Origin: Plumapathes pennacea
Taxonomy: Eukaryota > Cnidaria > Anthozoa > Antipatharia > Myriopathidae
DNA: 64,000 bases
NCBI GenBank assembly: GCA_964036295.1
Contig: OZ038464.1
Location: 24,378,008 to 24,442,007 of the forward strand
Direction: 5' to 3'
The notes under the pieces were generated by a model. It was not told where the DNA came from. It ran no database searches and was given only the letters and a program-made list of their open reading frames with translations. Of the stretch, positions 10,017 to 64,000 are shown in pieces. Every line of letters begins with the position of its first letter. Positions within the stretch are counted from its first letter, which is position 1. Made by a program: the position numbers and the translations under genes.

Positions 10017-10088
10017 TCTCGTTCGAACCAATATTCAGAGCACAAAGCCTATGGTTTCTGTGAAACGAAAATCCGATTGATTGGGCAA

Positions 10089-24200: not shown

Positions 24201-24381
24201 TGCCTTCTTCTGCAGGTGGGGGTTTGCTTTTTGTCGCGATATCCTCAGAAGTTACCGGCTGGACATTGAACTCTCTTTGACCCGAGGGAGCCGGCGCTGG
24301 CTCACTAACTTCGTCGCTCTCTTCTTTCGTCTTATCCTCGGAGTCATTTTGGGACAAATGCTGCTCTTCTTCCGACGACAT
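18206..24381 (-). CDS. slc12a2-like: Na-K-Cl cotransporter, SLC12 family (tandem copy 2)
   Basis: Six exons (24001-24381, 22631-22910, 21495-22183, 20368-20859, 19455-19785, 18206-19098) give 1021 aa. Exons 2, 3 and 4 have exactly the lengths of copy 1 (280, 689, 492), and protein and intron edges are very similar, so the two arose by a recent tandem duplication. Conserved parts are the Thr block [18 protein letters not shown]3 [16 protein letters not shown]6 [18 protein letters not shown], the NQT sequon before CATQMC, and the C-terminal [17 protein letters not shown] and [15 protein letters not shown]. Unlike copy 1 it keeps the family consensus in TM3 (ANAVAAA) and TM6. The N-terminus reads REFNV where SPAK/OSR1 docking would need RFxV. 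Intron 1 is only 1.1 kb, against 4.5 kb in copy 1. Intron 4 holds a MITE, and a long palindrome lies in intron 3. Family assignment is firm; Na/K/Cl stoichiometry is inferred. Confidence 0.94.
19891..20162. mobile_element. MITE in intron 4 of SLC12 copy 2
   Basis: Terminal inverted repeats AAGGCCTGGAAAAACGAGGA and, at the right end read in reverse, AAGGCCTCACGGAAAAACGA. Length is about 272 bp with no coding. TTA-like bases flank both ends. Confidence 0.7.
21215..21447. mobile_element. Long palindrome (foldback) in intron 3 of SLC12 copy 2
   Basis: Arms of about 115 bp meet at GGAGTGAAAGGGTTAACCCT (about 21322-21341). Arm blocks include GAGTGATCAACTT(T/C)AATTTTCTCC and GAACTTGGCTTTTGATA. Related single arms occur near 37200-37265 and 51020-51070. 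Confidence 0.75.
22475..22590. repeat. Inverted repeat in intron 2 of SLC12 copy 2
   Basis: TGGGAGTTTATTCTTGTGGG (left) is repeated inverted on the right side as TTTGTGGGAGTTTATTTTTG. It has MITE character and is absent from the matching intron of copy 1. Confidence 0.6.
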
Positions 24382-34900: not shown

Positions 34901-37900
34901 ACCAAGGGCGAAGGTCAGAAAGAAGATATTGAACATCGTACTAAAATAAGGGAAGAAGTGCGGGTTGGAGAGACGAGAATGCACAAAACACACAGACAAT
35001 CACAAAGACAGAAAGAGACAGTGATAGAGACAGAGATAAAGACCAAAGACAGACACAGGGATAGAAAGCAAGACACGGAGTTCATGTCATGCACGTACAC
35101 TGCAAGACGAAAACTTTAGTGAAAAGAAAAGAATAGGACAGAAGAACAAATGAGAGAAAGAGAAAAGATGGGTAAGAAGGATAAGGAAATGAGGAAGGGA
35201 AACGAAAAGACGTGAAACGTTGAACCTAAAACGATCTTACCTGGAAATCATTGATTAAACCATAATCACATTTGTGGCTTGCACAATAACTGGGTGAGGC
35301 TGTGCCGTTAATGGACCCATTAACTGAAAGAAGTCCAGCAATGATTCCCGATGCATCGCGTTCCACACAAGCTCCAGCCATCCAAGCCAGGAGTAGGTAC
35401 ACTATCGTGCTCAGGACAATAGCTATCATCGTGCCCTTGGGGATTGCTTTTTGAGCATCCTTAAGATCTCCTGAGATGTTCACCCCAGCGAGGATACCAG
35501 TTGCGGCAGGAAAAAAAACTGCAAACACCGAGAAGAAACTCTCCTTTCCGCGATAGTCAGGGCCAAAGTTTTTGTTGAACAAATCTAGAGAATACCCAGA
35601 AAAACCTTGAGCCTTGCTTAAGTCATTTTGTGGACCAATAAATGTCCCTACGATTGCATCTGCGATGGAAATGAGCAAGATGGCGAGAAGGAACATCTGT
35701 GTGCGAACAACCCATTCAAGGCCGATCAACGTCACACCTAGCAGCAGAAGTACAGTCAAAATTCCAATAATGCGAATGTCGTTGATCTCATCGACCATGA
35801 GTGCATCGTTTTCTTTTAGCAGATCTCTCACAGTCTCGGCAAATCCAACCACATAGAGAGCCACTGCTACAGCATTTGCAACTGAAAAGATCAGTCCAAT
35901 TGATCCACCAAACTCCGGACCCAGACTGCGGGAGATGAGGAAATATGCGCCCCCTGCAAAAGAAATGAAGCAACTTGAGGCGCGCCATGTCCACACAATA
36001 TATTCTTTGCTGTTCAGACAAAAACGGTGAAAACGGTAATCGAAAACGGAACTTTTCGAAAACGTATTAGTTGTGGATGGGAAAATGAATAAAAAAACGC
36101 TGTCGTAAAAAAACGGATTTTTTTTGTCTTCAAGTGAAAGAGGATACGTGTGGACATGGCCTAAATTAGTGGTAATGTAGGGTGGTGGAGTAGGAATCTT
36201 GGTGGAGCACCCCTTCCCACTTTTCAGTGTTAGCGTGATAAACACACGAGCACTACATCACCAACATTGAGAGAAGGATGTGGGGGGTGGGGTGGGGGCT
36301 TGGTTTAAAGAGACTGCTCTCTAAATATTAATAACAGCTGGGTCTTACCTCCTTTGACCTCTCCATTTGTGCATACTGCTGACATGGAGAGAGTTGTAAC
36401 GACAGTAACAAGTGCCGATAACAGGACAATGACTGTAGACCAACCAATCCCAGATTGTCCCACAACCCATGTGAGTCGAAGGAACAGCATCACACCCCAG
36501 ATGTTCAATAGACATCGGAGCATGACACCTTTCAACCAGCCAAACTTTGGTGCCGCTTTGACAACCTTTGGCTCTATGGGACCTACTTCTCCACTGCTGA
36601 AGTTGCCCTTCTCCACATTACTTGGATCCCTGACACCATCAGGTGACTGTAAGTGAATTCACAGAATGATAGTGAGAACTCTGGACAGTATCTTTATTTA
36701 CTGATTGATACCTAATAGTATCACCTCTGGGATGCCTGTCTTGCCTGTATTTCAAAAGTAGCCCTAGTGCAAAACCGTTCTCATGAAACTTAGTTTCACT
36801 CACATGTTCAAACTCATTTTTATAAGAAAAGTCTTGCATTACCAATCAGGGTTTTTAAAACAGAGGCATCAGGCATCTTTGAAATGGCCAGCCATTCATT
36901 CCTTGTATACATATAAAGACCTACCCCATGGGGTATGCCTCAGAACTTTGGTGGGGATGTGCCACATCAACAAATATTATTGTTCTCCAAACCCTGACCT
37001 TTTTTCAGACCAAAATGTATTATTTTCCATGCCCTTTTTCAAACCTGTTTCCTAAACCTCATAGCCTTTAACTGTGGTCCCAAACATATCTGTAAAAATC
37101 TACACTGCCCATGATGAAAAAGACAAAATCTGTGGCCCTGTTTCAGACCAAAATGTTATAAAACTATACCCCTGGAGACCGCACCCCTCAATCCTGTTGC
37201 TGGGGATTGTGAGAGAAGTCAACTTCAATTTTGTTTCAGTCTCTCAGTAGAGATACCATAATATTACAAACATGACAGTGAAAGTGATGTTGAATTATAG
37301 TGAATGGTAACTTTAGCAGTGGAGGTAGAACAGATCACTTTCCCTGTTATCCTCTGTCCACAGTTTATACAATTATTTATATAACATCTATAACACTTCG
37401 ACATTAGCATATAAAAATCATATCATAACACAAAATAATATGCCACACTTTTTCACAAAGACCTAATGGCAGTTAACAGTTTTCTGACAGATGAACTGAG
37501 CTGATTAAACAAAACAATTCTCACTACATCATTCATCGCACACCCAGCCCTGCCAAACAATATAATGTCCCAGCCTAAACAGGAAACAGCTACAACATGT
37601 GCTGTGAAACCCCCCATGCAAGGTCTAGATTGTCAATTTTTCAAACTTTCAGTTTTGTTCTGCTCACTATCTTTTCTGTTTTTGTGATTTTTTTTTTCTT
37701 GCACTGCTTTCACTGTAAAGGTTTTTAGGCCCCTCCCCAGCCATATCTTTTGTGTCAATAATCAAACTGGGTTAAAGTGATAAAAGTATAATTTTACAAT
37801 TTTTTTTTTTTTTTTTTTTTAAGTGTTATGAATTATTATATACTAGTAGAAGTGTTTTTTAAATCAAAATCAAATAGCTTCATATGCACTTTATTATCAT

Positions 37901-38869
37901 GTGCCAAATCTTGTGTCAATATCCAGATGAAAAACCCACTCTCATTCTTAACCCCTAATCCTCTAGTATATCTACAAAATATTGACCCACAAACCCATTG
38001 TCTTGTTGTGATAATAATTATCATGCGTGCACTGACGTACTTTGCATAATAGACAAGTAATTTTCCGATGTCAAGTATAATATTGCACTAATCAAATATA
38101 TTGTATGCAGTTTCATAAATTACTGAGCTAAAGTGTATATCTAACTGCCCTTCCCTGTGTATTTTCCAAACAGTTCTGTGTGAACAGGAGAAATTAGTAG
38201 GAACTATGCGAAAGATTGTCTGAGTCGTTTAATAATAATGAGATGGGAAGAGAATATATGGCGACAGACTTTGAACTAGTAATCTCACAAGTGCCTTCGT
38301 TAAGCAAAGAGATAGATATGTTTTACATATCAAAACACCTGCTCTGGATAAGGGAGCGGTCATTAAAACTCGAAATAATGAAGTCTGTCTCTTATATTCA
38401 AAACAAAAGCAAGCTGCTGGTGTAAAATACAACTGTAGAGATGAAACTGGGCATAGATTCTTAAGAAGAAGGAAATTAAGTAGCAACGAAGAAACACGCA
38501 AACCTGTTGATCTCTATTGGTTTCGAAGCCTTTTCTCAATTGTTGAAGTGTTGGTCTTGTTCGCTCGTGTGCTTCGTTCCTGTAGAACACTGTCATCGGA
38601 ACAGCTTCGTTCGTCGCATAACCAATTGTGTCCATCATGGACAATGGAGGACAAGACGATGGTGATTCAATGAGACTCGCTTTGCGGCCACTGGGTGGTG
38701 AATCTTTCGTGTTCTCCATCGGAGTAGTGCTAGTAGTAGGTTCAAACTGGACTTGAGCGACTCTGAAACGCTGGCTAGACGGAGACACATTCGCCGGCGG
38801 CGATGACGTGGGAGGTGACAGATCCTTCCAAGATACGCTCCCCTGATCCCCATTTGATTCTCCTTCCAT
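31901..38869 (-). CDS. slc12a2-like: Na-K-Cl cotransporter, SLC12 family (tandem copy 3)
   Basis: Six exons (38504-38869, 36349-36646, 35241-35953, 34305-34796, 33441-33732, 31901-33111) give 1123 aa. Intron positions and phases match copies 1 and 2, but exons 1, 2, 3, 5 and 6 differ in length, so this is the more distant paralogue. The N-terminus carries RFRVAQV, a canonical RFxV SPAK/OSR1 docking motif with the spacing seen in vertebrate NKCC1, then the Thr block [20 protein letters not shown]3 ([17 protein letters not shown]) and TM6 ([18 protein letters not shown]) match the family. The loop after TM7 has two sequons (NGS, NGT) before SYCASHKC. The C-terminal domain has a long Ser/Glu-rich insert (about residues 770-910) between the VAILRVKEH strand and [20 protein letters not shown]. 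The protein ends TFYC rather than TFYS. It is probably the least derived of the three; this is inferred. Confidence 0.94.
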
Positions 38870-40579
38870 GATATTGGATGAATCTCAGAGGAACAATATA
38901 CTGAAACAGGAAACAGACAATAAATCATCTGGCCGACCAAGATCGGGAGCTCTTTGTTGTGGAAAAGTAGGTACTTCATGTTACACATCATATACGCTGA
39001 ACGGATTGCGTGCGCCCCTCCCCTCCCCTCGTGGAAACAAAACCATTCTACCACATTACATTCCCGGGGGTGGTAGGGACGTTCCGCCCGCTAGGGATCG
39101 TTTTCAAGTATAAAATTTACATTTTCGTGTCTTAAACAGGTTTATCTCCTGAAGAAGCTAAAAATGTTTGTTCAACAGAAGTGTTGATACCGCAAACTTC
39201 CTTCATTGGCAAGTATCTGCTAATGTTCCTTCGATATATTAAGAGCACAGTTATCTGTAGAGCCCAACCGGGGTAGGGGATGGGCCCTTGACCGCAGTGC
39301 CCACACGTGGCGATTTAAAAAAAAAGCCGGGGGGTGTTCTGAATTGGAAAATTAATTGAATCAGTACAAAACTGAAATGAGTCAGCACTGTGGTTTTCCG
39401 GTGACAAATATCAGACCAAACAACTATACCCCTGAAGATGCCTAAATTACGTGGAAGAAGTGGATTCGGATTAAAAAATATTCTCTTTACTTTTCCGCCA
39501 CTAAAGATTCTGTCCGTAGCGCGTGCTTTCAAAACCTCCAGTCTTCTCGACTTTTTAAAATAATATAAACTAAAGCTAGCTTTATGCCAAAGCGTCGGCG
39601 GGCACAAACGCATCGGTGTGCGATTCCATTCTCTCAATATATTCCCGATAAAAATAAAAAAAAAAAAAAAAAAAAAAGGACAAATTCTATGTACACGCGC
39701 GGCCGGGTGAGGGACTCCCAGGCCAAACGGTACTCTCAAGTCGAGCCAAGTTGCAAAAAAGAACATCAATTGTCATAACAAAACTTGATGCAATCACCTT
39801 GTGTTGACTTGGCTTGGGTGGCCAAACGGTAAAAAGCTCAGGGTAGAAATTTGAGTTCGACCAAAGTCGGAGACAAGTTAACTCACCCAAGTCGAAAACT
39901 TGGATTGAGTTGTTTAGACTTGGAGTATAATAAACATGCAATAGTTTGTTTCTCTTTGCCGAGCCGGGCGCTAGCATGTATGGGAGGTCCGAGGGCATGC
40001 ATGAAAACTAGAAATAAACGCCGTGCGGCAAAGTTTCGGTGGTCACGCAGCAATTTTTTAAACGCCCGACATCAATATTCATTAACCAACTGTCTCCGTG
40101 TGGTTTATAAGCAATATAATCTCCTGGCGGAAACGAGACAAGAATCCCGCATCCCGAAGACCCACCTACAGGGCGAGTGGATATCTGCGATTATCGTATT
40201 TCTAGTTAGTTTGTAATGTTTGTAACTTTATATATATTGACAATTCATGTCACTCAAGCTCTCCCACAACAATAAAATGCGGACACACAAACACAAAAGT
40301 CTAACAAAACAACTTGTCTTTGTACAGGCATAACATATCCTCGGTATTGCATTTTTGCGTATTTTACAACGAAGGGGTAATGAATAATATTTGAGCAGAC
40401 CGACAAAGCAGACAAATGTCTGCGTGTGTCAGTTACATCGCTTACAACTCAGTTTAGAAGTTTCGTCGCAAAATATTTACATAGAAATTTCAACACAAGA
40501 TTGATTCTCCTAATTAAGAAACTAAGGATCTTCCTTAGTTTCTTTAGCTCAAGTTTTAGTTCAGTCATAGTTCATTTCT
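38870..40579. other. Intergenic, SLC12 copy 3 promoter side to OS9 3' end
   Basis: It includes a C-rich/GC patch (39010-39095) upstream of the copy 3 start, a poly-A run (39655-39677) and a Helitron 3' end at 40205. No coding exon is recognised. Confidence 0.5.
40170..40205 (+). mobile_element. Helitron 3' terminus (fourth copy)
   Basis: GGATATC then TGCGATTATCGTATTTCTAG followed by T. The body extends to lower coordinates; no TCCCCGA 5' end was found upstream, so its length is unknown. Confidence 0.65.
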
Positions 40580-44900: not shown

Positions 44901-47900
44901 TCCGAACCCGTTTGACTTGTTTGCATTTCATCTCTGGTCTCCTCGACTCCTTTGTTCTGTCTAAAAAATTCACTCAAATTTGAACTTTGAACTTTAGTCA
45001 TATAGCAATTTAGGAATGTGGGCCGCTCGCAGCAACTTTTTGCCGACAAAAACAACAACAACAACAACAAAACAACAACAACAAAACACAGAAAAATTAC
45101 ATATTTGATAATGATTATAGAGATTTTTATATAGGAGAGTAATATCTCACTAACTTAGCATTAACCACCAACCAAAAATGTGATGCACTTTGACTTATTA
45201 ACAACTCATAACGTCATGCTCCAAGCTGTTTTCTTTACTCAATTTCCTTCATCATTAAAACCCTCACCTCCCGGTTTGCCTCTTTCTGAGCACCTTGGAA
45301 CTCATGATTGAGATAGTGTCGTGACCGTAGTCACCCTCCAAGTCTGGTCGATCCTTCCGCCTGCCCTTTGTGATGTCCACTCTATTGACCCCTATCGTAT
45401 CCTTAGCGATATTTCCATCGATCCACATCTCGTCTTCAGACTCCACGGCTGGTTCGTCCCACGGCCACAGTTGGCTTTTCTTCGCTTTCTTCTTTTTCGT
45501 GGGTTGTTCCGTTTCTCCCAAGGATTCAGGGGCGTCAGTCCTCTTTCGTCGTGCCTGTTTTTCTTCTCTGGCTTTTTTTCTCGCCTCTGTAGCTTTTCGC
45601 TTATTTTCTGTTGGAGAAACACATCGCGGTATTCTGGTTACAGCCTGTTTGTAAATCTCTGTTTCTCCATCACGAGTAATCAAGCAATCACAGATCACAT
45701 CAGGGACATCTGCAAATATCGTATTTCTAGTAGAGCTTATTCTTAAGGTCTAAAAGTTATGCAAGTTCTTCTCGTTATTACAGCTTGATTCCAAGGGCGC
45801 ACTTCTTTCGGCCGACCACGTTACTGACCACGTACCAACCACATACCGACCACGTAGAGACCACATACCGACCTTTAAAAACTTATCATTGTACACTAGT
45901 TCTTTTCACTATTGGAGCCTAATTCTTCTGAATTACCTAAAACGAAATATAAAAGGTTTATGTGGTGTTAGGGAAATTGATATGGTCTCAACTTAAGGTG
46001 ATTCCCTAGTTTTGCATTGCGCATATTTAGTGCGCATAACACTTTTGAGATGGTGAACATTGAAAACCACCGAAATTTCAAGATCGAAAGTTCTTTATAC
46101 TCTTTACGCAAAAAAAGTTACTCGTCCCAGTCCCCTCTCGGAAAGAGAAATTTTGAAATGAAAAATTTGCCTTTTCCGAACAATTGCGCAAAAACGAGCA
46201 TGGAGACCCCCCTTTTTTATTTCATGTATTTCAAGTAAATACGATTCTCCATAATATATCCCAATTTAAAGAATGTTCCATTTCACAATTTTGAAATATT
46301 TGCATTTGAATATTATTACACTGTGTTTATATAGCAAAGTAGTTGCATACTAAAGTCCTGTAGCATGAAAACGAGCATGGTGACCCCTAATTTTTATTTT
46401 ATTTTTTTAATGTACTAGAAGTAGTTAGTATTTGTGCAAAGTTTTAAAAAAATTCCATTTCAAATTCTATTTCGATGGAATCAACTTAAACTCAGGCAAG
46501 AACCATCAAAATGTAAGTTAACTTGGTCCGGACATGACCTTTCAATCAATCAAAAAGTAGAAAGAAGATCATAATGAAATATGGGTATGGTGTGTGAGTC
46601 TTACCAACTGTCTCCAGGTAAATGTTGAAGTGGTGTTCTGGCAGAGCTGGTGAACAAGTTATTGGGTGCAGTTTTTCGTCTGCTGGTGGTTTAAACAGCG
46701 GGTTCTCACAGAGACGTGCTGTCAGCACTGTGATTATGTAGGTACAGGAGGACGGCTCATCGACTCTGACAGCAGCATCAGGATTGCCTTTTTCACACAT
46801 GAACTAAGAACAAAACAAGTCATAATTTCAGTAAATTACTCTTAGGTTTCCCAGCTGCTTGCCAGTAACCAGGCATTAAGACACAGAAATGTAGTTTGCT
46901 GCCTGGGTGGCTTATGTTCTGGTAATCCACTTCAGTTTCAGCTCACCTTGACCAGGGTCTCCCGTGGTTTCCCTGTAAGGTCACACTCTGTCCCATTTAC
47001 ATAGAAATGGCTGTGAAATCTTTTTGTCTTGGTCTTGGAAGGCTTCTCCTATAAAAGTAACCATGATTGTTAGTACACAGTAAAATTATTTAACAAAGGG
47101 TGAAGTCAAAAAGATCAAGTTGACAGCCAAGCAAGTCTTACCTGAAGGTTCACCTCTTCTTTAGTCCAGTCAGTCTGTGACTGATAAATACCTAATGAAA
47201 CTTTGTCTCCCACAACCATATTACCTGACAATGCCAAGAACAATAAACATGACACATTATGATATCTGCTAGCTGGTCATATTCATTAAAATTATTTTAA
47301 CATATTTTTACCTTCTTCATGATACTGGCTAATCTGTTTTCCAATGCACACTTCATATGTCCACCAACCATTACTCTGCAGACAATAAAGGAATGTAAGT
47401 CATAACTTATTGACCTGGATACGAGTCTTACTAGGCACATTTATATCATGAAATCACCATCTCCAAGACAGGTTAATTCTTTCATAAAATTTTACTTTAA
47501 AATAACTGTTTTTATTATATAGACATGAGTGTTTTACTGGAAAATATACCGTGCGTAAAATCCATACGAAACTACATCCGGGACCCAAGTGGCGTATTTT
47601 CCATATCGTTGGCATCATTTCAGCTTTTGTATGGTTGTTTGTGCAATTTCTCGTAAAACACTCGTGTCTAATATAATAAAAAGAAAATTACACGGCGGCT
47701 TGAAGATATGGATTTTATTTTCTCGAGGTAAAAACAATATTTTACTCACTCGCAAAATGCTCGTTCGTAAAATATTGCTTTTACCACTTGAAAATAAAAT
47801 TCATATCTTCACGCCGCCATGTAATATCCTCTATTTAGTAGTACTTATTAAGTAATTAGTCCTACTCAGGCCAGTTCACTACTCTTTTGAAGCTGGAGTA

Positions 47901-51273: not shown

Positions 51274-54200
51274 TCAGCTATCTTGTGCATCAACAGTTTG
51301 TTCCTGTGTGGGAGCTGGGGAGGGTGTTGGCGTGCCACTGCGTCGCAAGGACCGTCGGGAACTCCTACTACCGGCACGTGACCCAGCCGATTTTGGTTTC
51401 TGAGGGAGGTGGGGTAGGCAGGGCAGATTGTCCACCAGCCCCTTGTAAATGTGGCCATCTTGTCCTAAGATGTCCACCGCCTGAAGGTCCTTCGGAGCCG
51501 CCGGCACAAGAAAGTCAAACTCTTCTTTGTTAAACTGCAAACCGCGGAAAATTGCACGACTGTGGGGGTAGGTGAGAGTATGATTTCCGCCGCACGCTCG
51601 GTCCGTCATCTCGTTTAGCTCCTCGAGGTCCCGGGCACCACTGGGGAAAGAGGAGTCGGTGAATTTAGCGTAAGAGTGGCAAAATCCTTATTTTGGTCAA
51701 GCGAAAACAGGCAACACATTAGCCGGTTTAAATTTGTACAGGAAATTAGAGACAAAATGTAGATCACTATGAACGAAAAGAATCAGCTTCTCAGAGGAGC
51801 ATTCACCTTTCATTCGAAAATTAATTTTACTCATGTTCATTTTCGAAGCAATTTCACTTCATACTGAAGGTAGGCCTTGGACAAAATTTTTAAAAGTGAC
51901 TAACGTTTTAGGCCAAAACTTTTTTAAAAGTTCACTTTGTTTATTGGTGCCACCTTCAAAATCACCTAAACGATATTTTTTTGCACCTGAGCAGTGCATT
52001 GAGAAAAATGGAAAAAAACAGTTGTCGCTAAGATCACAACTCTTGCTGATATCGTCCTTACAACTTCCTAACTGCGAAGATAACAGTTCACTTACAAAAA
52101 AGTGCATTGCAAGTATTCAGTTTATCTCAAACTTACTCAGTATTCAACCAACCTTAGCCTCAGAATTTCTTTCTGTAACTTCTGCCGCTGCTTCTCGAGC
52201 AGTTCAAACCTCTCCTTGGTCATTTCCAGACCTCCCTTAAGCATGTGCTGTCGGATTTGCTCAAGCTCGAAAGTGGTGTAGGGACGGCTCGACTTGGCTC
52301 CAGGCATTGGCTGGATTGCGGGTAATGCCGGGAAGATCCCGTCCCGTGCGTATTTGACAGGTCGAGCGCACGATATGCAACTGAAGTTAGGTAAGAGAGG
52401 TTTGCGGAAACCAGCTGCGAGATCTTCTTTTGGTGGCTTCACTGCAGGTTTGGGCCGCATCGCCTTTAAACGGGCCTCCAGAAATTCTTTGAGGGGACCG
52501 ACTTCTTCTTTGTCCAGTTTCTTGTTGACGTCGTTTGAAACCGTATTTACAGCCTGTTTGAGTGTGTCTTCCTGTTGAATAAAGAACGGTTGCAAAATGT
52601 TGCAGTGCAGTGGTACAACACAGACATAGCGCATCATCAACACAATTCAATAGATAATATGGTACGATCCGCATAGTACAAGGCAAGAATGTGCAGTACA
52701 CAGAAAAATTATAGTCAACTGTAGTCCTTTGTGAAAAAATAAAGCAAATATTAGCAATCCATTTCCATCCGGACCCGTTGAGAATAACATTAGCCAGAAA
52801 TGTATGATAGTTTTTAGTGTTTGGAACCATAATCAAACATTTTCAGATGCAAACATAAACACAGGCAAAAGTCTGGTCCCTTTAATAAAGTGAAGCACAA
52901 AATAAACTAATATAACACCCCCAAATTATTAAGCTAATCTAAATACAATTATTCTCACAGGACTTACATGCCCATCCAATCTCTGCAGCAAATCCCTTAA
53001 CGACTGATCAACCAGTCCCATGCAGCGATCAAAGTCATCGCGACCAACTTTCATGTCCACTTCCCTTTTGTCAGCCTTGAACTCGAAGCCCTCACTCATC
53101 AAGTCCTTGTCGGCCTTGAGATCCTGCAGCTGTTCAACTAAGCTGTACAACTCATCCACGTGTTTCTGCTTCCTGTAGAGCTCTTCGTCCATCTGTGCGT
53201 TGGCTTTTTTCAGGTTGTCTTTCTCTGATTGCAGATCGAATATCATGGTGCGAATGACACTTATTTCCTCGCGGTGAGAGGAAGTGCTTGAACTCTTTCT
53301 TAGTGGGGGTGCTTCTGGTTCTTTTGACGTCTCCTCTACTGCTGTCCGTATAAAAAAAAAGAAGCAATTGGAACTAAATCAATCAAAGAATTACTCGAAT
53401 CAACAATAACGGACGATAATAAAGTATCTGAAATCATTTACAAACAGAGGACCAAGATCCGAGTAAGATTTTCAGTTTTAAGCCTACTCGATTGTCACGA
53501 CTTTCGTTCTCTCAACAATAACACTGCCTTTTTCTTTACTGTATGTTACAAGGTGTCACATCTTAAATAGCAAACGTTTGAAAGTTGTTGCAGAATTAAT
53601 CAATAGCTATTTCTACCCAATTGAGTTTGTGCGCGCAATGTAAAAACAGATAAGCCTCGACCATGCAGCTTCCACATGGTTTTCACTTACCTGGACTCCT
53701 CTCCTGTGAGCGGGTTTCCTGCGTTTCTCGTTGGAGAAGAGTCACGTTGCCTTTAAGCTGATGTATCTGTAGCTGATTGTCTTCCGCGAGTGTTTTCACG
53801 TTTTCGAGGGACTTGCTGAGCTCCGTCAGAGAGTTCCCTGTGCTTTGGATATTTTTGCAGCTTTTCTCGAGTTTATCGTTCAAAACGTCCAGTTCCTGTG
53901 CGTTCTTCTTCTCTCTTTCGTTGCTACTCGAGTTTTTTCCCAGCTTCAGCTCCGCCTCTAGCTGTTTGACTGCTTCTTCTTGATCCTTAAGTTTCTCCAA
54001 AATCTTGCGGATTTCTGCCTTTGGTGCTAATGAGACTTCCTGAACCTGGTTTTGAGATGCTGATGAGACTTCCTGAACTAGCGGCCTGGTCTCAGAGGCC
54101 ATCGCTTTTTCAACTTGCCGGTTAACGTACTCTTCAATAGCCTTCATATCAATTGACGCATTCTCGTCGTTTTTTGTATCCACAGATCCTGATAGTATAA

Positions 54201-55062
54201 TCTCGTCCAGTGCTTCTTGTACTCTTTCAAAGGACTCTTCGAGTAACTTCAACTCTTCCGCACTAGCCATGTCAGCAATTGTGTTCTTCAATTGCTCCTT
54301 CCAGCTCTTAATCTTACCTAATTTTGCTAGAATAGATGGAATACGATCGATGTTTGTAAAGTCGTAGTTTTTCATCTCGCGAAGGTCTGCTGTTACGGCG
54401 TCGACCATTTCAGTGAGACCCTCGACAGAGTTCTCGACCGCTTCCAGTCTCCTCTCCACGTTTATCAGCTGAACCATATCATGGGCGGGAGTTTTTGAGT
54501 CACGTCGGACTAGCGAGGCTGCGGAATGCACCATATCTGCTAGCGGCTGCGGCGTGGGAGTGCTTTCGAGAGCATCCAAACGAACTTGCATGTCTGTGAC
54601 TGTCTTTTGAAGATTCTTTAGAGATTCAGTTTTTCCCAAAAGGACCTCTATGGATCGCTTGGGGGAGTGCACAGGTTTTATGACCTCTTGAGGCGTTTTG
54701 TTCCTGTCTTCTTGTTCTTTTTCCTTTTTTGTACTTTTTACTTCTGGTTTTACTTCTGGTTTTGAAACCTTCGCCGCGTCTGGCAAACTTTCAGTAATAG
54801 TTTCCTCTTCCTCTGGTTCTTCAACTTCATCTTCAGGAACGTCAGGAGTACTGGGCCGAAGAGCTATAACACCCTCTTTGATAAAGTCATGTGCAGACTT
54901 AAAGTCTCCCTCGCTGGTGATAGCGATCAAGTTTTTCGACAATCCAAGGTGCCTCAAAATTTCATGAAGCACGCCACGAAGGATGTTAAAATTCACGGCG
55001 CCGACTTCTGGTGTAGCGAGTGCAAGGTCCACCAGCTGTTTCAGCTCAATGTTTATAGACAT
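51274..55062 (-). CDS. QRICH2-like: QRICH2/C16orf96-like protein with DUF4795
   Basis: Four exons (53691-55062, 52968-53338, 52153-52571, 51274-51640) give 842 aa. The N-terminus (LVDLALATPEVGAVNFNILRGVLHEILRHLGL) matches the start of C16orf96/QRICH2 proteins. A long acidic and coiled-coil region follows, with a Pro/Glu stretch at about residues 75-130 and heptad-like Leu/Glu segments to about residue 450. DUF4795 spans the last three exons: LYSLVEQLQDLKADKDLM, the CISCARPVKYARDGIFPALP cysteine motif, RPYTTFELEQIRQHM, then CGGNHTLTYPHSR and VDILGQDGHIYKG. The tail is Ser/Arg-rich. Human QRICH2 is much longer because of a Gln-rich insert absent here, and is known as a sperm-flagellum protein; a ciliary role here is inference. 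A polyA signal (51124-51129) lies 145 bp past the stop. Possible donors offer two phases at 52153; the chosen one keeps the frame into exon 4. Confidence 0.9.
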
Positions 55063-56590
55063 TTTCAGGTGGTTGGATCACGAGCTAGGATTACACTTTA
55101 CAAAACCGACTTTTTGATTCCATTTACGTTCCACCTGTACGCAACAAAGGAGCAATGGCGCGCGCTCCACTCAATTATCCGTGACGTCAGGAGTGTTGAT
55201 TAATTCGAGTGGACACGCGAGGACTCCACGCGGAATACGATTATTGGACGAGAGCGCTCATGGCATCTCTCGTTCATTTGCTTCGTCCACTCGTTGAGTT
55301 AGGGAGAGCAAGAAACAACGAGGCAGAAAGAGAAAAAGACAAAACATAAGCTGCGGACATAGCGTTTTTGAAAAATTTAACCCCTTCGCTTTTATGAGTT
55401 CTTTTTTGTAGTGACTCATTAGAGCTTTTCTTTGAGTGCTCACACTCTAAAGTTTCGGAGTTAGAAGTTGTATCTTGGTTGAATCCAATTTGCCTTTGGC
55501 AAAGGAAGCAAACTAACTAAGTTACGCGAAACCATACACTGCACTTTATTTCAGAAGAACCAGCTGCCCGTGATAGGCGTGGATCAGTCGATAAATATAG
55601 TTTCTGGTGACACAGTGTTCCAAACAGGTTCGTTTTGTCTCTGATTAGACTAATGGGATCTTCTTGATTCTCTCCCGTCCAATCGTAATATAGAATGGGG
55701 AAGTGAACACACTGAAGAAGTTAAGGGTTGAGTGACATAATTGATCTGAACTGCAAGATATTCCGTAGCTTTAGAAGAGCTGTTCACGAATATAACTCCA
55801 GGGAAGGAACTCGAGATTTCAAGATTATTTTAAGCACTTTTCAGGTGAGAAGTCTAATTGGGCTAAGGCCAATTGTTTTATTTCTGTTTTTGAAACCATA
55901 CGTCTCTTACCTTACTTCATGGGGTCTGTCGGAATACTTTAGAATAGCACGGTTTAACGAAGCAATTGCTCCCAACGTGTAATAGAAATTATCCCGCAGT
56001 GTTTGACGTACTGTGCTATGTGTTACTGGAGTATGGTATTGCAAAGATATCCCTTTAATCGCGTCACTTATCAAAATCAACCTTGTCACTTCTTTCGGCG
56101 GCGCGGCTTTTGTTTGAATACAAGGACTATATAGCCGTTTCTAGCCAGGTTTTCAAATAAATAACATGGGATAAGTTAGTCTGTAATATACGCGCACACA
56201 AGCGGTCCTTGAATAGCACAACCAGGAAAAATTGGATCTTTTCCACATTACAGAAGAAAAACAAATCTAATTCTAAAAGTACATTTCAAGTTATGTCCAG
56301 AATATTTCCATATACCCGAGAAAGAATTGGACAACTACAGAAATTAAATTTCAACCAGCACATTTCTAACTCATTAACGACATTTAACCCTTCCAAAAGC
56401 AAAAAACGGCCAACCCTGAACTTTAAAATGATGAGCAGTGCGTCCATATCAGTTCATGTTCAGGCTTGTTTAGTTAAGTTTACGATATATTTCATTTTTT
56501 TCTTTGTACCCAGATTAACATGCCAGTACATTATAATAAAAGGTAACGCCTAAACTGAAAGCGTATTTCATGTGATTTACTCCAAGTCTT
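55063..56590. other. Intergenic between QRICH2-like gene and secreted gene 1
   Basis: These are divergent genes, so both promoters lie here. A TATA-like box for gene 1 is at 56129. The short plus-strand frames at 55728 and 56209 have no support. Confidence 0.5.
56129..56135 (+). promoter_or_regulatory. TATA-like box for secreted gene 1
   Basis: TATATAG in the context GGACTATATAGCCG, followed by an open 5' leader and an acceptor just before the ATG at 56600. Confidence 0.4.
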
Positions 56591-56599
56591 TTTAGGAGC

Positions 56600-57893
56600 A
56601 TGAGGGTGAAGTTTCCTTATTCAAGTTGCCTTTTAGTGGCGCTCTTGGTCAACTCGTTTGTCGACTCAAAAAACATCGACTTGCCCAAGTCGGATTCAGG
56701 TTTGCGGCAACACGACCCACTGAGCAAGTTAACGGGCACGCCAATCGACAAAGCAGATGGAGATAGTGACAAGCTCGGAAATCAAGTAAAAGGTTGGTTA
56801 GATACGAGTGTGTGCGTGTTTGTATGTCCTACAAAGTGCATGTGGAAAACCTATAACGTTAGTTTAGGGTTAGGTTGTTATTTTGGGCAACGTTATGGAG
56901 ACATAAAATAAGATGATTTGAAATTAGGTCGTTCAAGGGCTTATCAACGCGCCCAAGTGGTACAAATGTATCGGAAAGCCGAACTTGCAACCAGCTCAAA
57001 GTTCAGTTATTGCATTTATTATTGTCAAATTCGCGTGCATAATTGGAGCTCGATCAGTTATCACTTTAGACAAGCTGGTAGAAATATTGTTTTTGCCATC
57101 TTGTTTCCAAAAAAAGCCGAATAGAAATTGAAGTATCTCCGTGAGGAAGGAAAACTTCCTGGTTAAACTTTGTTTTAGCATTTTACATAAAAGTTCTTCT
57201 AATATAAGAAAGTCATATGGCATTTGCGCGTCACATTTAAGTTTATAACAGTGCCGCCTTATTCTTGCTTCCTTACGAACAGGGCAGAGTGGGCAACAAA
57301 GCGATAACAATGGTCAACCCTCTGCTGCAAATCAGTATGGAGCCGGTGCGGGTACTAACGCTTATGGGACGTACAATCTTAACAACGCAGGTGCAGCGTA
57401 CGGGTCTAATGCCCCGATGTATGCCGGGAACCCTTACGGGGCCCCATTGGCACCCAACAATTATCCTTACAGTGGCGCATACGGTTTGAATACATGCGGC
57501 TGCTCGCAGGGCAATAATCAGTTTGCACATGGAGTTAATGGTTATAATCAAAATCAAGCCGGATCAAAGCTATTGCGTAATCAGGATGCGATTGCTAGGC
57601 AGGGCTATCAATATAATCAAGGTTATTTTGGTATGCCAGCCTATGCGCAGTACCCTCTTTCGCCGGCTTACCCTGCGCCCGCTTTTGGTTACGTTTATCC
57701 GCAAAACAACCTCTACCCTTACAGCTACTACGGGCCACAGCAACACTACTACCACCACCACCTCCAAAAGAAACGAAAACAGGACATTGGTCGGCAAGAT
57801 AAGAAACATCGAGTGAAGAAACAGAAAGATGAAAAAAGCCGACACAAGAAATATTATAGAGACGAGAGAAGAGGAGAGAAGAAACACTACTGA
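56600..57893 (+). CDS. Secreted Tyr/Asn/Gly/Pro-rich protein, uncharacterised (tandem gene 1)
   Basis: Two exons (56600-56792 and 57283-57893) with a phase-1 intron give 267 aa. I recognise no named family. Exon 1 encodes a signal peptide (residues 1 to about 22, MRVKFPYSSCLLVALLVNSF) and a charged linker. Exon 2 is low-complexity: GQSGQQSDNNGQ, then repeated Tyr-Gly, Asn-Tyr and Tyr-Pro steps, one CGC pair (residue about 147), a His cluster (HYYHHHL) and a very basic 40-residue tail rich in Lys/Arg. An acceptor (tttttag) ends 4 bp before the ATG, so a non-coding first exon lies upstream; a TATA-like box is at 56129-56135. A polyA signal follows at 57934-57939. Architecture and intron phase match the next gene. 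It is likely an intrinsically disordered extracellular protein, perhaps matrix or mucus; no biochemical function can be read from it. Confidence 0.8.
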
Positions 57894-57933
57894 GATAACT
57901 TGCAGCCCAAACAAATAACATCCCGAATTGTAA

Positions 57934-57939
57934 AATAAA
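57934..57939 (+). terminator. Secreted gene 1 polyadenylation signal
   Basis: AATAAA 41 bp past the stop. Confidence 0.75.
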
Positions 57940-58239
57940 GCAGTCTGCAGTTAAACTAATCGTCTACATCTTATTCCAACAATTCTTTAGAACGTAGCGT
58001 GCTTCATAGCAGATAGGGTACACGACGCGTTGACATGTCAAAAGCACCCCACCCCCTCCCCCCAAGATGACAGCCTTGCATATTGCTTGCAAGCTACTTA
58101 AATCTCCAGAGAATTTAAAAGTTCTTTCCCAAAGGCACCAACGAATAGCATAACCAGCCTGACAAAATCATCACCAAGCATCGCATTCTGCTGTATCGTA
58201 TCGGTAGTGCGATTATGGTTATCTGATGTTATCTTATCT

Positions 58240-58312
58240 TGTGTTATGTTATGTTACGTTATGTTATGTTATGTTATGTTACGTTATGTTACGTTATGTT
58301 ACGTTGTGTTTG
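58240..58312. repeat. (TTATG)n microsatellite downstream of secreted gene 1
   Basis: About 14 units of TTATG/TTACG. The following GTGTTGTGT...CTTGTCATG is echoed at 62868-62895. Confidence 0.85.
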
Positions 58313-58394
58313 GTCAATTGGCATTGTGTTGTGTCTTGTCATGTCGTATCATTGCGATTTTTTTATTATGGTATATAGTATATGATTTTTTATT

Positions 58395-58722
58395 CACGAG
58401 TGTTTTACTGGAAAATATACCGTGCGTAAAATCCATACGAAACTACATCCGGGACCCGAGTGGCGTATTTTCCATATCCTCACTAGTGAGGATATCGTTT
58501 GCGCCATTTCCCGCTTTTGCACGGTTGTTTGTGCAATTTCTCGTAAAACACTCGTGTCTAATATAATAAAAAGAAAATTACACGGCGGCTTGAAGATATG
58601 GATTTTATTTTCTCGTCGTAAAAACAATATTTTACTCACTCGCGAAGCGCTCGTTCGTAAAATATTGTTTTTACCACTCGAAAATAAAATTCATATCTTC
58701 GCGCGGCCGTGTAATATCCTCT
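58395..58722. mobile_element. Compound foldback element, copy 2
   Basis: Same two-hairpin layout and nearly the same sequence as 47524-47832, in the same orientation, with a short extra inverted segment (CCTCACTAGTGAGG) in the first loop. Confidence 0.8.
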
Positions 58723-58857
58723 ATATATTGTTTGGGATCATTTATGGACATCATCGACCACTTTTGTATTAAACCAAAAATCTCGTTAAAAGGCAGTGGA
58801 ATTTTAACCACTGAATGTAAAACGTCCCTTTCATTACACGGACCGTTTCTATTGGTG

Positions 58858-59110
58858 GTTTCTATCAGTTGACCTGATCGTAAAGTAGGGGAGAAAACAC
58901 CTGTTTTTGTTTGATCATAGTAGCATCTAAAGGCACAGGTCTGGCATTGTTGTGGTGGCTCCCAGGTGATTGTACAGGTCAGCTGGGTCGCAACCCCTCT
59001 AAATTACCTGCGGAAAGAAGTGAACGCATTCATCCAGGGACTATGAGGTAATGTACTGTACGTAAAACGTAACAAGTTATATGCTTGTGAAGCCCACAAA
59101 ATCTAACACG
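58858..59110 (+). repeat. Duplicated block upstream of secreted gene 2
   Basis: It shares ordered blocks with 63668-63950: TTCTATCAGTTGACC, GACATTGTTGTGCTGG-like, CTGTACAG, and GGATAATGTAA/AACGTAA-like. It lies about 0.8-1 kb before the gene 2 ATG. Confidence 0.6.
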
Positions 59111-59869
59111 CCAAAGCCCGTGTTACGCGCGCTGCCAGTAAAGGAAAGTTACTTGAAGGTAAAGCAAAAACTTTTGATTTCAGAACGTTTTTTTCCCAAA
59201 GCGCTAATCTCAGAGCTATTAGTTTAATTCATTATAGTGTCAACTTAAGTTGCACGAATGCAATGTTTCTGTGTGTCTAACAATTGAATAGTTGTTGTTT
59301 AGTTGTTTAGTTGCTAATATTGTTATTGATAACTGAAGTCCGTTACTAATTCGAGTATAACATAAACCGTAAACACGGTTTTTCGTGAGTACACTAAACA
59401 CAACTGATTTTTCTTCTCATCCAGTCACAAGCATTTAACATCAGGAAATAGAGTGGTAAACTGTATGAGGAAACTAGATAGAACAAAGAGAAATAAATAA
59501 TGCAGGAAGTAGTGAAAAAAGAATCAATGAAAGAAAGAAGCAGAGAAATAAACGGAAGCATAAACACTTTAAATATTTCTTTGTCACTGGCAATCAGGCT
59601 TTTACAGCCAATTAAAGAGAAAATTATCTAAACGGCTTTAAAAACGTCGGGTCGAGAATAGTCAATCTGAAAGGTCAAATAAAACCATAATGAAATGGTA
59701 ATAAGATAGAATAGTCGGCATTCTGTTTTCCGTAGAATTGAGTTGAACCCCTCAAGTTATACCAGATTAATTAGAGTAACCAGTTTTGCTACTCAATTAT
59801 TACACATATTTTTCCCGCCTCTTTCACAAACTTTTTCATCGTTTGTGTGTCACACAGGCCTCAGCAAAC

Positions 59870-62168
59870 ATGCAGCTCAAGTTTCTGCTATTGATGTGCG
59901 TTGCAGCAGTGCTGTTGGTTGATATTCTGGCCGTACCTACTCCACCGCTAAACCGGGACGAAAAAGAAGAGACGGAGAAGACACAAGATGAAGGAGAAAA
60001 AGACGAAGGAAGCAAAGTTGAAGAAAACAAGCATGAGATAGAAGAAAAGGATGAGATAGAAGAAAAGGATGAGACAGAGAGAAAAGATGAAACAGAAGGA
60101 AAAGGTGAGGCAGAAGAAAAAGATGAGACAGAAGAAAAAGATCAAACAGAAGAAAAAGATCAAACAGAAGGAAAAGATCAAACAGAAGGAAAAGATCAAA
60201 CAGAAGAAAAAGACAAAACAGAAGAAAAGGATGAAACAGAAGGAAAAGATGAAGCAGAAGGAAAAGATCAAACAGAAGAAAAAGATGAAGCAGAAGGAAA
60301 AGATGAAGCAGAAGGAAAAGATGAAACAGAAGAAAAAGATGAAGCAGAAGGAAAAGATCAAACAGAAGAAAAAGATCAAACAGAAGAAAAAGATCAAACA
60401 GAAGAAAAAGATCAAACAGAAGAAAAAGATCAAACAGAAGAAAAGGATCAAACAGAAGAAAAAGACAAAACAGAAGAAAAGGATGAAACAGAAGGAAAAG
60501 ATCAAACAGAAGGACAAGATCAAACAGAAGGAAAAGATCAAACAGAAGGAAAAGATCAAACAGAAGAAAACGAAGAACAAATTGTAGATGAAGAAGAGGA
60601 CACTACAAATAATGACGCTGAAGAGCCCGAGGCAGACGAAGCCAAGTCAAAAGGTCGTAAACACGGGAAAGGTGAATACAGTACCAATTCAATGTAGACA
60701 GAAATACAAGAGACAAAGAGAGAGAGACAAATATCAAACTAAATTGAAGGGACGAGATAAATGGAGATAGAAATACAAGATAGAACAAAATAACTGACTG
60801 TGGAAAGAAACACTAGCGAGAGAAATAGACAAACATAGGGCCCGGTTTTTCGAAAGTCGATTAAGCTAATCCAGGATTAACGAAATTATTTCTCTCGACC
60901 TCTCTCCCAATAAACAGCAAGGTTTTGTTCGTAGATGGATTAGAAAGCTTGTTCCAGCTTAAAACGTTATCACGAAAGTCGTTGTGGACGAAACTTTTAC
61001 GTTTTCTGGCTAAAAAATGACAAGAAAGTTTAGACCTAATCCAGGATTAGCCTAATCATGCTTTGAAAAACCGGGCCCAGATGTCTTTTTTTTTCAATGC
61101 TCATGTAAACATTTAGGGTCGACTTTTTTAAACAAAGTCTAACTTAGCCTGGTTAAATGGAAGTTTAGACGGATGCCGTAAAACAGGGTTAGCCAAACGG
61201 AAAATTGCGTTTTTAGAACATGGATCGGAGTCGGTTTGTAAAGACGACGTTTAGCCGTTGTCCGTTAAGCATGGCTATTGTTTTAATCTTGTTTAGACCA
61301 GGACTTTCTTAACCGCGGTCTAAACCTTGTTTAAAAAATCGGCCCTTAGGGTCTAATTCTCCCAACCTGCCAGAAAATGTTATTTTCCAACTGAGTTTGG
61401 CCATCTGTGGTTTTCGGTGGCTTGATCAGTATCTTAGTGAGTGAGTGAGTGATGGCCAAATTGTAGACACCAATGACTTCCACAAGTGCTACATATATCC
61501 GTGAGTCAAAAAGGGGAAAAGACAGAGAGAAAGACTGATAGACAGACAGACAGACAGACAGAAAGCGAGAATGAGACAGAAACAGATGACAAGAGGGGAG
61601 GCAGAGATTGCAAAAACAACAACAACAACAAAAAAAACAATACAAAACAACGAATAATTCATTATCATTTGTTTCCCTGAAACATCAAGAGTTCCCTGAG
61701 TTTCATATCTTACTTGTAATCGCAGGGAACACACGAAATGACTACGGCCGGTACGGTCAAGGCAGAGTACAGCCTCCGTACAACCCACAACAACAGCGGT
61801 ATCCCTACAACCAACAGCAGCGGTACAACCAGCATCAACAGTATAACCAGCAACCACGATACAACCAGGGGTATCAATACCCACCAAACTACCCGCAACC
61901 CCAGCAGTATCCTCAAACATACCCAAGACCGTTCCCTCAGCAGTACCCCCCACAATATCCCCAGCCCCCACAGTTTCCTGTTTTCCCGAGTTATCCTCCA
62001 TCGCCTTACGGCTTCCCCTTTCCACAGAACCCCATGCCCATGGGCGGCGGTTGTGGCAGTCCCTGCCAACAATTCCAAAGTTTCTACACTCCTCCGGCAT
62101 ATTATCAGCAGCAGCAACAACAACCATGCTGCCGAAGCCACGATAGGAAAAGAAAAGGGAGGAAGTAA
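59870..62168 (+). CDS. Secreted protein with 30-unit acidic KDQTEE repeat and Tyr/Pro/Gln-rich tail (tandem gene 2)
   Basis: Two exons (59870-60671 and 61726-62168) with a phase-1 intron give 414 aa. Residues 1 to about 21 are a signal peptide (MQLKFLLLMCVAAVLLVDIL), followed by VPTPPLNRDEKEETEK. Residues 54-233 are 30 uninterrupted hexapeptides of the type K-D-(Q/E/K)-(T/A)-E-(E/G), alternately acidic and basic with net negative charge. A basic patch SKGRKHGKG closes exon 1. Exon 2 is Gln/Tyr/Pro-rich (RYNQ, QYPP and QQYPQ-like steps), with Cys at GGGCGSPC and QPCCRS, and ends in a basic tail DRKRKGRK. An in-frame upstream ATG (59786) exists, but an acceptor (cacacag) at 59858 and the clean signal peptide favour 59870. 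The donor used is AAAG|GTGAAT. If unspliced, the frame stops at 60697. Polyelectrolyte repeats resemble those of biomineral or mucus matrix proteins in character only; function is unknown. Confidence 0.8.
60029..60568 (+). repeat. 18-bp coding repeat, 30 units
   Basis: 540 bp of in-frame 18-mers of the GAAAAAGATCAAACAGAA type, with no interruption. Other frames of the same DNA are also open (plus 60069-60587, minus 59948-60580) purely because of the repeat. Confidence 0.95.
60838..61078. mobile_element. MITE in intron of secreted gene 2
   Basis: Terminal inverted repeats GGGCCCGGTTTTTC(G)AAAG, with internal CTAATCCAGGATTA repeated on both sides. Confidence 0.8.
61116..61345. mobile_element. 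Second MITE in the same intron, TTA target duplication
   Basis: TIRs GGGTCGACTTTTTTAAAC and GGGCCGATTTTTTAAAC, flanked by TTA on each side (61113-61115, 61346-61348). A 3-bp TWA target suits PIF/Harbinger-type MITEs. Confidence 0.75.
61542..61562. repeat. (CAGA)n microsatellite in intron
   Basis: About five CAGA units; an (AAC)n run follows at 61614-61630. Confidence 0.8.
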
Positions 62169-62271
62169 CAGGACAGGTCAAGAAACAAAAAAAACGTTCC
62201 TAGATCAGCGGTATCTTGTGCTAGAGGCGAGTCAGGGTGTAAAATAATAGCCTCCGGCATCAAGTCTGATC

Positions 62272-62277
62272 AATAAA
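62272..62277 (+). terminator. Secreted gene 2 polyadenylation signal
   Basis: AATAAA 104 bp past the stop. Confidence 0.75.
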
Positions 62278-62279
62278 AT

Positions 62280-63381
62280 TTGCTTTTCATTCGGTGTGAT
62301 TCCCCGCGTGTAGATTCTGCTTACCCCATTCCACAGCTTTCCACTTCGTATGTCTTAGCAACTACTCTCCAAACTCTGGGAAAATCTGTTTTTTCCTTAT
62401 ACATTTTCGCTCTGCAAGAACACTGCAATATCAAGCAAATGGCGTCTTTTGCTTGTGACAGATTTGGTGCACATGTGCTCTTCGTGAGGCATGCACGCGG
62501 TTGGATAGCCTGAATACCACGTGAGCACGAGGAGCATGAGCGTCTAGGGCAAATTTGTCTTTCTGCAGTTATGGTAATCATCATTGTCTTTATTCTTTGC
62601 CTGATTTGACATTCAACCTTTCTCCATTCCAACATTTCTTCATGATTTTTCTGACGAAAAGAATCCCAACCCCCAAGAGCCCAGAAGACCGCAATTTCAT
62701 AATACCAGGGCACATAACTCTCTGGAGGAATAAATTCAACCCCAAAGCAACCTACATTGGCCAAATAACAACATTCATTAGTACTTATCCATATTGAAAT
62801 GTTGTATTGTACATACCGTATTGTACTCGATTGCATGTGTTATTTTGTTTTGTTTTTGGTTTAGTTGTGTTGTGTTGTGTAAAGTCTTGTCATGCTGTAT
62901 TCGTATGTTTTATCCATAGAGAGGCTTTCGGGTGGTTTTCGTAAAACCAAAACCAAAGCAATTACAGCACCAATCACGGATGATGTAAGGAACACTGTAT
63001 CAAACTCATTATAATTCATAGGATTTTATTAGCCAATCAGTGCATTGCATTTGGTCAGGTGGATAGGTCCTGATACAGCTTCATGATCAAACACTGATTC
63101 GAGCGTTTGATCCAACTTCCGATTCAAGGGATGAACATGCCCTAATTTGCGTATACATTCCTTTAATATATTTTTTAAAAACTCGTGCTTCTTCTTCGAT
63201 GAGAGTTCCAACTGACTGTCAATGACCTCGTGCTTTTATTATTCTTGGTATGAACATTCAAACACTTGCACTCGTTTCTTTAATATAACCAACCAACCAA
63301 CCAGAAGTCAAATTTGTTTTACTTTGAAGAAGAGACAATGAAAAGTGCAATATAATACCATTTTCTTGCTTGCATTAATAG
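62280..63381. other. Gene-free stretch after secreted gene 2
   Basis: No supported exon. It contains AAAACCAAAACCAAAG-AATTACAG at 62943-62970, a short dispersed repeat also present near 29095-29125 and 63565-63582. Confidence 0.5.
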
Positions 63382-63512
63382 AGGGTTTGCACGGCGGTCA
63401 TGTTGGATGGTAGGAACAATAGAATTCAATTCCTCTGGGAAAGAAATGCTACTGTTATGGAAAAGTATTTCATTGTTCCTGTCATCCAACATGACCGCCG
63501 TGCAAACGCCTC
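63382..63512. mobile_element. Short MITE with about 40-bp inverted repeats
   Basis: GAGGGTTTGCACGGCGGTCA on the left; the right end read in reverse is GAGGCGTTTGCACGGCGGTC. Length is 131 bp. Confidence 0.8.
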
Positions 63513-63667
63513 TTGGTTTGCTATCAAACTTGTTTCAGCTAATCCGAAAGCCAGCATAGCAAACACAAAACCAAAGTAATTGACACGATTACTTTCGACA
63601 TTGTCTCAGTTAAAATGCTCGTCGGAAAAAGGTAATTGAATTTCAACCGGCATTGCATGTCTTGGTT

Positions 63668-63950
63668 TCTATCAGTTGACCACAAGCATAAAGTGGGCGA
63701 GAATGTACCTGCCTTTATTTGACGAAAGTAACATTTCAAAGAGCAGGTTTGACATTGTTGTGCTGGTTCCTAGATGCCTGTACAGTCAGCTAAACCACCC
63801 ACACACATTCTAAAAGAAAAAAACCTCGAATCTTTGCTACAAGACGATTGGAAAATCCATTCATGCATGCAAGGATAATGTAATTAACGTAACACGTAAA
63901 AGTGGTTCTACTGTGGAGCTCACACACACTTTGGTCACTTGTGGTCGAAT
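63668..63950 (+). repeat. Second upstream-type block at the right edge
   Basis: Counterpart of 58858-59110, 4810 bp further on. By analogy a further secreted-protein gene may begin about 1 kb beyond, outside the window. Confidence 0.5.
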
Positions 63951-64000
63951 ACAGGACGATTGTTACACTTACTGCGTTTTAAAGGGAAGATATTTAAGGT

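Follow-up and report, generated by a model that had tools for sequence, protein, structure and literature searches.

We analysed a window of 64,000 nucleotides of the antipatharian Plumapathes pennacea (assembly GCA_964036295.1, contig OZ038464.1, positions 24,378,008 to 24,442,007), in which two adjacent genes, here called A and B, are predicted on the plus strand (Table 1). The predicted proteins share one order of parts: a hydrophobic leader, a charged stretch, an intron position, a second exon rich in Tyr, Pro, Gln and Asn with close cysteines, and a basic tail. An earlier note on this DNA had proposed two adjacent plus-strand genes of one design, and this is borne out by the exon models, the leaders, the composition and a phase-1 intron common to both genes, which in each splits a Gly codon after Lys to give an identical Lys-Gly junction. 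The pair is confirmed at the level of predicted gene models with a common design. We further note, as a new observation, that the spacers following A and B are colinear duplicates, which supports a tandem duplication at this locus. Gene anatomy, leaders, charge blocks, composition and the spacer duplication can be read from the DNA itself; secretion, cross-linking, coacervation and the tissue of A and B are what we infer.

Table 1. Predicted features of the A/B locus, in positions of the window
Feature	Position	Strand	Description
Gene A	56600-57893	+	267 aa, two coding exons predicted
Possible gene A 5' untranslated region (UTR) intron	55845-56595	+	Donor CAG/GTGAGA at 55845, acceptor AG 56594-56595; prediction
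Gene A coding exon 1	56600-56792	+	193 nt; leader aa 1-23, balanced charged region aa 24-64; phase 1 end
Gene A intron	56793-57282	+	490 nt, GT-AG, weak donor AAG/GTTGGT
Gene A exon 2	57283-57893	+	Tyr/Gly/Ala/Gln/Asn-rich region, Cys136-x-Cys138, 42-aa basic tail (+13), stop
Candidate poly(A) signal of gene A	57934-57939	+	AATAAA
Spacer 1 (after A)	57944-59160		Blocks 57944-57976 (weak), 58040-58154, 58744-59160; colinear with spacer 2
Gene B	59870-62168	+	414 aa, two coding exons predicted
Gene B coding exon 1	59870-60671	+	802 nt; leader aa 1-22, acidic region net -71; phase 1 end
18-nt tandem array in gene B exon 1	60040-60570	+	29.5 copies (Tandem Repeats Finder)
Gene B intron	60672-61725	+	1054 nt, GT-AG, contains fold-back element 60838-61078
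Gene B exon 2	61726-62168	+	Gln/Pro/Tyr-rich region, C377-x3-C381, C402-C403, short basic tail (+6), stop
Candidate poly(A) signal of gene B	62272-62277	+	AATAAA
Spacer 2 (after B)	62562-64000		Blocks 62562-62595 (weak), 62657-62769, 63579-64000 (to window end)

The leaders, whose boundaries are heuristic (set by hydropathy and the -3,-1 rule), reach hydropathy maxima of 2.55 in A and 3.25 in B. The pro-region that follows spans 41 residues in A, with seven positive and seven negative charges and a net charge of 0, and 245 residues in B, net -71. The "charged stretch" of the earlier note therefore differs between the two proteins, its charges being in balance in A but with a strong acidic excess in B. 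The middle of A (161 residues, net +1) holds 24 Tyr and the Cys136/Cys138 pair, and the region after the pro-region of B (134 residues) holds 20 Tyr and Cys377/Cys381. The tail of A, 42 residues with a net charge of +13, includes seven acidic residues and is very hydrophilic, and that of B comprises 13 residues from CC (Cys402/403) onward, net +6. Cysteines number two of 244 residues in mature A (one CXC) and four of 392 in mature B (a CX3C and a CC motif separated by 20 residues). Glu accounts for 19.9% and Asp for 9.4% of mature B, whereas mature A carries a net basic charge and has 5.3% Asp; Gly makes up 11.9% of mature A and 7.1% of mature B. Dibasic sites are present in both proteins, and neither contains a furin-type RX[KR]R site, an N-glycosylation motif after the leader or a Gly-X-Y run of at least three G-x-x. 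All six segments placed on the charge-hydropathy line fall on its disordered side, the middle region of A marginally so (-0.036).

Splicing of both genes is a prediction, scored with approximate matrices. Among the 3589 GT dinucleotides on the plus strand of the window, the B donor ranks in the top 0.8% and the A donor in the top 3.7%; among the 3857 AG dinucleotides, the acceptors rank in the top 1.8% (A) and 1.2% (B). A different A donor, at 56786, was rejected (score 0.5 versus 1.8), and it would give a frame with a stop at 57489. Acceptor-like sites also lie directly 5' of both ATGs (scores 3.3 in A and 3.1 in B), implying exon starts at 56596 and 59858. The one strong donor upstream of A, at 55845, could pair with the pre-ATG acceptor, and for B no donor above the threshold used for this site occurs between 57900 and 59850. 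An untranslated first exon is possible for both genes and clearer for A. Given these acceptor-like sites, the "two-exon" description in the earlier note may be incomplete.

The composition of the second exons is extreme for this window. When 349 stop-free segments of at least 60 residues from all six frames were ranked by the share of Tyr, Pro, Gln, Asn and Gly in a 60-residue stretch, the two exon-2 segments came out on top (0.88 and 0.65), followed by a segment at 0.42. The coding frame of A exon 2 is the sole stop-free frame of the six. Of the six frames of B exon 2, the coding one is lowest in residue entropy (3.29), and in it codon position 3 comes close to random (1.98 bits) with positions 1 and 2 constrained (1.76 and 1.75). 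This speaks for coding selection in B exon 2, with the repetitiveness maintained at the protein level. The acidic array of B consists of in-frame six-residue repeats, each with a net charge of -1 to -3 (26 units, counted up to the first irregular one, with three later units excluded). Differences of these units from their consensus are 12 synonymous and 33 non-synonymous, that is 27% synonymous versus 15% expected under uniform change. Several points weigh against the gene models. The A donor is weak, as its rank indicates. In A exon 2, one of the reverse frames comes out slightly below the coding frame in residue entropy (3.74 versus 3.81), and codon position 1 of the exon is unconstrained (1.99 bits), both of which argue against a strong coding claim for A. 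Three other frames of B exon 2 are also stop-free, so openness is not evidence for coding in that exon.

A and B are likely related, although the evidence is weaker than that for the spacer duplication. The leader proteins align with a score reached in 13 of 5000 shuffles (10 of 2000 on repeat), the ungapped identities over leader residues 2-18 are equalled in 178 of 20,000, and the leader DNA, compared in register from ATG to ATG, gives a score reached in 7 of 2000. For the exon-2 proteins the corresponding count is 14 of 1000, or 47 of 1000 for the low-complexity part alone; BLASTP without composition correction returned 8.8e-7, a value inflated by the common composition. Since these shuffles ignore the bias common to all signal peptides, kinship is likely rather than proved. 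Counting against it, the exon-1 proteins and the tails show no similarity (260 and 963 of 1000 shuffles reach the score) and the charged regions do not align, in keeping with the statement in the earlier note that the sequences hardly align. The introns (score 27, reached in 51 of 60 shuffles), the upstream flanks (44 of 60), the exon-2 DNA (16 of 60) and the 250 nt 5' of the ATGs (495 of 500) match no better. The wider exon-1 DNA reaches its score in 4 of 60 shuffles, by which the apparent kinship may be chance or convergence.

The strongest signal of duplication lies in the non-coding DNA. The largest block of spacer 1 aligns with its counterpart in spacer 2 at a score of 161 (best of 100 shuffles 52, so that 0 of 100 reach it), with 274 of 374 ungapped columns identical (73%) and 91 gap columns. 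The intermediate pair of blocks scores 52, which none of 200 shuffles reach with the microsatellite masked. The first pair is weak by score (30 of 500 shuffles) but has almost the same offset as the neighbouring pair (4618 against 4617). The stretch between the larger blocks (58346-58743 versus 62800-63578) does not match, its score being equalled in 97 of 200 shuffles, and this unmatched middle carries different fold-back insertions, 58566-58726 in spacer 1 and 63385-63507 in spacer 2. Outside the spacers, the first 250 nt after the B stop do not match the 3' side of A (267 of 500 shuffles), nor does the upstream flank of A match the largest block (50 of 60). We rejected the idea that a Cys-rich gene on the minus strand has a coding exon in these blocks (the CQTC-like reading), because stops break the frames differently in the two copies.

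The simplest account of this arrangement would be one tandem duplication of about 57944-62561 that carried gene B, with the second copy running from 62562 past the end of the window. On this account A would be an older neighbour, and a third, B-like gene is probably located near 64.7 kb (59870 + 4840), just past the window. Two insertions of one long mobile element may also have left these blocks. In a scan of the window with the largest block alone, no other standout copy emerged (best other score 41, without a shuffle control). We also considered and rejected the spacer duplication as the origin of the A/B pair itself. Simulated copies of the A intron at the divergence of the spacers scored at least 166 in 200 runs, versus 27 for the A/B introns; the simulation assumes that introns drift like spacers, and the rejection would be weaker had one of the introns been lost or replaced. 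Neither the introns nor the upstream flanks nor the exon-2 DNA match between A and B, so the spacer duplication looks younger than the A/B split. The tandem family proposed in the earlier note therefore gains support from the non-coding DNA as a duplication at the locus, but that duplication is probably not the source of A and B. It follows that the proposal of an architecture kept while composition drifts compares two old paralogs or conceivably unrelated genes.

That A and B are unrelated, two independently evolved low-complexity secreted genes that are neighbours by chance, is in our view unlikely but by no means far-fetched. Phase-1 introns following leaders are common, the introns, flanks, exon-1 proteins and tails do no better than shuffles, and the spacer duplication accounts only for B and its downstream copy. 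The leader DNA nevertheless matches in register, the same Gly codon is split after Lys, and the segments most extreme in composition in the whole window belong to these two genes, which lie on the same strand with their ATGs 3.3 kb apart; all of this argues for kinship.

No named family for the pair was found in profile or structure-sequence searches or among the papers listed in literature searches, in line with the earlier note, which knew of none. Pfam returned no families for the whole A and B proteins at E values up to 10. The bacterial and archaeal models of NCBIfam returned no matches for either exon-2 protein, and two for B exon 1 that lie far under the cut-off. A PDB sequence search covering whole A and B exon 2 returned none. 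Pattern matches to A exon 2 in viral contigs (six) and to B exon 2 in bacterial and archaeal genomes (132) yielded none that were confirmed, and animal genes are not expected in either set. Six peptides from A and B were also sought in the open papers searched, and none of them appears there; this is weak evidence, as supplements and closed literature lay outside the search.

Comparison with known systems places A and B in a broad class rather than a family. Unlike minicollagens with their cysteine-rich domains, B has one CX3C and one CC and A one CXC, and a central Gly-X-Y run is absent from both. Galaxin carries di-cysteine repeats, unlike B with its single CC and A with none. The cysteine content of galaxin, 11.76-12.7%, also far exceeds that of mature A and B (PMC4890752). 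B resembles the coral SAP, SAARP and CARP proteins in being predicted as secreted with an acidic block, but these are Asp-rich (PMC4890752), unlike B, in which Glu predominates, and A. SAARP and CARP share a non-acidic region between acidic domains (PMC4890752); the second exon of B is Gln/Pro/Tyr-rich. The lysine-rich matrix proteins of the pearl oyster (KRMP) have, like the predicted A and B, a secreted and modular design in which one region is basic and another is Tyr-rich and of low complexity; they are encoded by a multigene family whose site of expression is the mantle that forms the shell (PMC3191542; PMC4498902). Interaction with acidic proteins or carbonate has been suggested for their basic region, and cross-linking for their Gly/Tyr region (PMC3191542), which makes KRMP a precedent for the mode of action proposed below. 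However, in KRMP a signal peptide is followed by a Lys-rich basic region with six cysteines and then the Gly/Tyr region (PMC3191542), whereas A and B have a C-terminal basic part, two or four mature cysteines, the Gly contents given above and, in B, a long Glu-rich block. With order, cysteine number and composition all different, A and B are not KRMPs.

Silk-like structural proteins (SLSPs, including shematrins) are also secreted, low-complexity and structural (PMC4944945), as A and B would be, but are defined by repetitive glycine-rich domains as scored by SilkSlider; A and B are rich in Tyr, Pro, Gln and Asn. The putative adhesion proteins AC714, AC1077 and AC4076 of the diatom Amphora combine Tyr richness with a signal peptide; AC1077 is 17.6% Tyr and 23.4% Pro, and AC714 and AC4076 have dense negative and positive domains for which coacervation has been proposed (PMC4220933). 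We claim no homology with these diatom proteins, and B, unlike them, joins both charge blocks and a Tyr/Pro region in one chain. A and B show the marks of a secreted low-complexity structural protein, namely a leader (heuristic), a repetitive low-complexity region and no known folded domain, and are most likely of a known kind: secreted, unstructured, tyrosine-rich proteins with charged ends that are likely parts of glue, mucus or matrix. Low-complexity, lineage-specific structural proteins are known across animals, and only 22% of the SLSPs found resembled one from another taxon (PMC4944945). In each of two coral genomes, tandem duplicates make up some 30% of the genes (29.9% and 32.6%; PMC10236652). 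By analogy, the A/B locus fits this known pattern of lineage-specific low-complexity proteins and frequent coral tandem duplicates.

These observations suggest a small tandem array with A and B as old paralogs, encoding secreted, intrinsically disordered structural or adhesive matrix proteins, a reading to which we give about an even chance. It agrees with the secreted, low-complexity, fast-changing matrix-type proteins of the earlier note, which is still the best description. The charged N-terminal block, strongly acidic in B, might keep the chain soluble or allow Ca2+ condensation in secretory granules. After secretion, the tyrosine-rich middle would associate through Tyr/Pro/Gln/Asn stickers, and both tyrosine oxidation and the few cysteines could provide cross-links. 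The basic tail would bind polyanions, whether these are acidic glycans, a mineral surface or the acidic block in a partner of the B type. Through such tail binding and cross-linking the proteins would set as a gel, glue or organic framework. A bolder version, which we consider distinctly unlikely, is an unnamed, self-coacervating tandem family in which each chain has an acidic block, Tyr/Pro/Gln stickers, a cysteine clasp and a basic tail, and in which the coding exons outpace spacer turnover by repeat expansion. Neighbours would then retain the charge architecture and lose almost all alignable sequence.

Other roles fit parts of the anatomy. The pair may instead belong to the organic matrix of the skeleton, with Ca2+ bound by the acidic block of B and a framework around aragonite formed by the Tyr-rich and basic parts; we think this unlikely. 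The net charge of the B pro-region favours it, as does the presence in coral skeletal proteomes of secreted acidic and uncharacterised coral-specific proteins, with some skeletal genes in tandem (PMC4890752), and the enrichment of calicoblast-expressed genes for those of Hexacorallia, Scleractinia or single-species origin (PMC8162421). Coral acidic skeletal proteins are, however, high in Asp, where mature B has about twice as much Glu, mature A is net basic, and the missing peptides count weakly in the same direction. As cationic host-defence peptide precursors, in which an anionic pro-region neutralises a basic tail that proteolysis frees, A and B are very improbable. Precursors with an anionic pro-region and a cationic peptide exist in Hydra and corals, and B has acidic sequence before a basic tail, with dibasic sites in both proteins. 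Yet the A pro-region is neutral and its tail is very hydrophilic with acidic residues, the B tail is short, a furin-type site is absent, and the long Tyr-rich region would be left without a role. We regard as quite improbable, finally, that they are structural proteins of the cnidocyst (nematocyst or spirocyst) whose acidic propeptide is removed and whose cysteines are cross-linked. Both are predicted to be secreted and Pro-rich, Cys pairs including CX3C and CC lie near the end of B, and nematocysts have known low-complexity structural proteins (PMC4944945); against this, the Gly-X-Y run, a minicollagen-type cysteine array and the furin-type site are all lacking.

The window also holds repeated and fold-back sequences. 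Two copies, at 58395-58727 and 47524-47837, are 88.6% identical, and the right part of the former is the long hairpin 58566-58726; they are probably a miniature inverted-repeat transposable element (MITE)-like element. The spacer 2 hairpin has two 49-nt arms that are 86% complementary, and the fold-back in the B intron consists of two arms of 42 nt that are 83% complementary and carry GGGCCC at their outer ends. Further upstream, three tandem SLC12-type cation-chloride cotransporter genes lie on the minus strand (471-10034, 18206-24435 and 31901-38884; outer limits judged by eye from similar open frames), with seven tested exons matching Pfam SLC12 or AA_permease. A DUF4795 gene, which we take to be QRICH2-like, also lies on the minus strand (52137-55077, with matches at 52137-52646 and 52929-53378) and reads away from gene A. 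Its first exon may be a 464-aa open frame (53683-55077) that has no Pfam family above the cut-off and ends about 0.8 kb from the candidate 5' UTR donor of A. QPRT and NAC domain genes are found in the window as well, and together with the SLC12 and DUF4795 genes they would fit an animal. Open frames at 5510-5950 (plus strand) and 15015-15413 (minus strand) share, by eye, a repeated basic peptide of the QQRMNADQKRHEQKR type, and nothing above the Pfam cut-off was found for either.

Repetitive secreted matrix proteins are difficult to identify through homology, and this locus offers a dated test of how such proteins change: the spacer copies still align, and the older neighbouring genes retain little beyond their architecture. 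The predicted third gene, if true, would show whether exon 2 outpaces spacer DNA in divergence. If secreted to skeleton, mucus or glue, A and B would be added candidate materials proteins.

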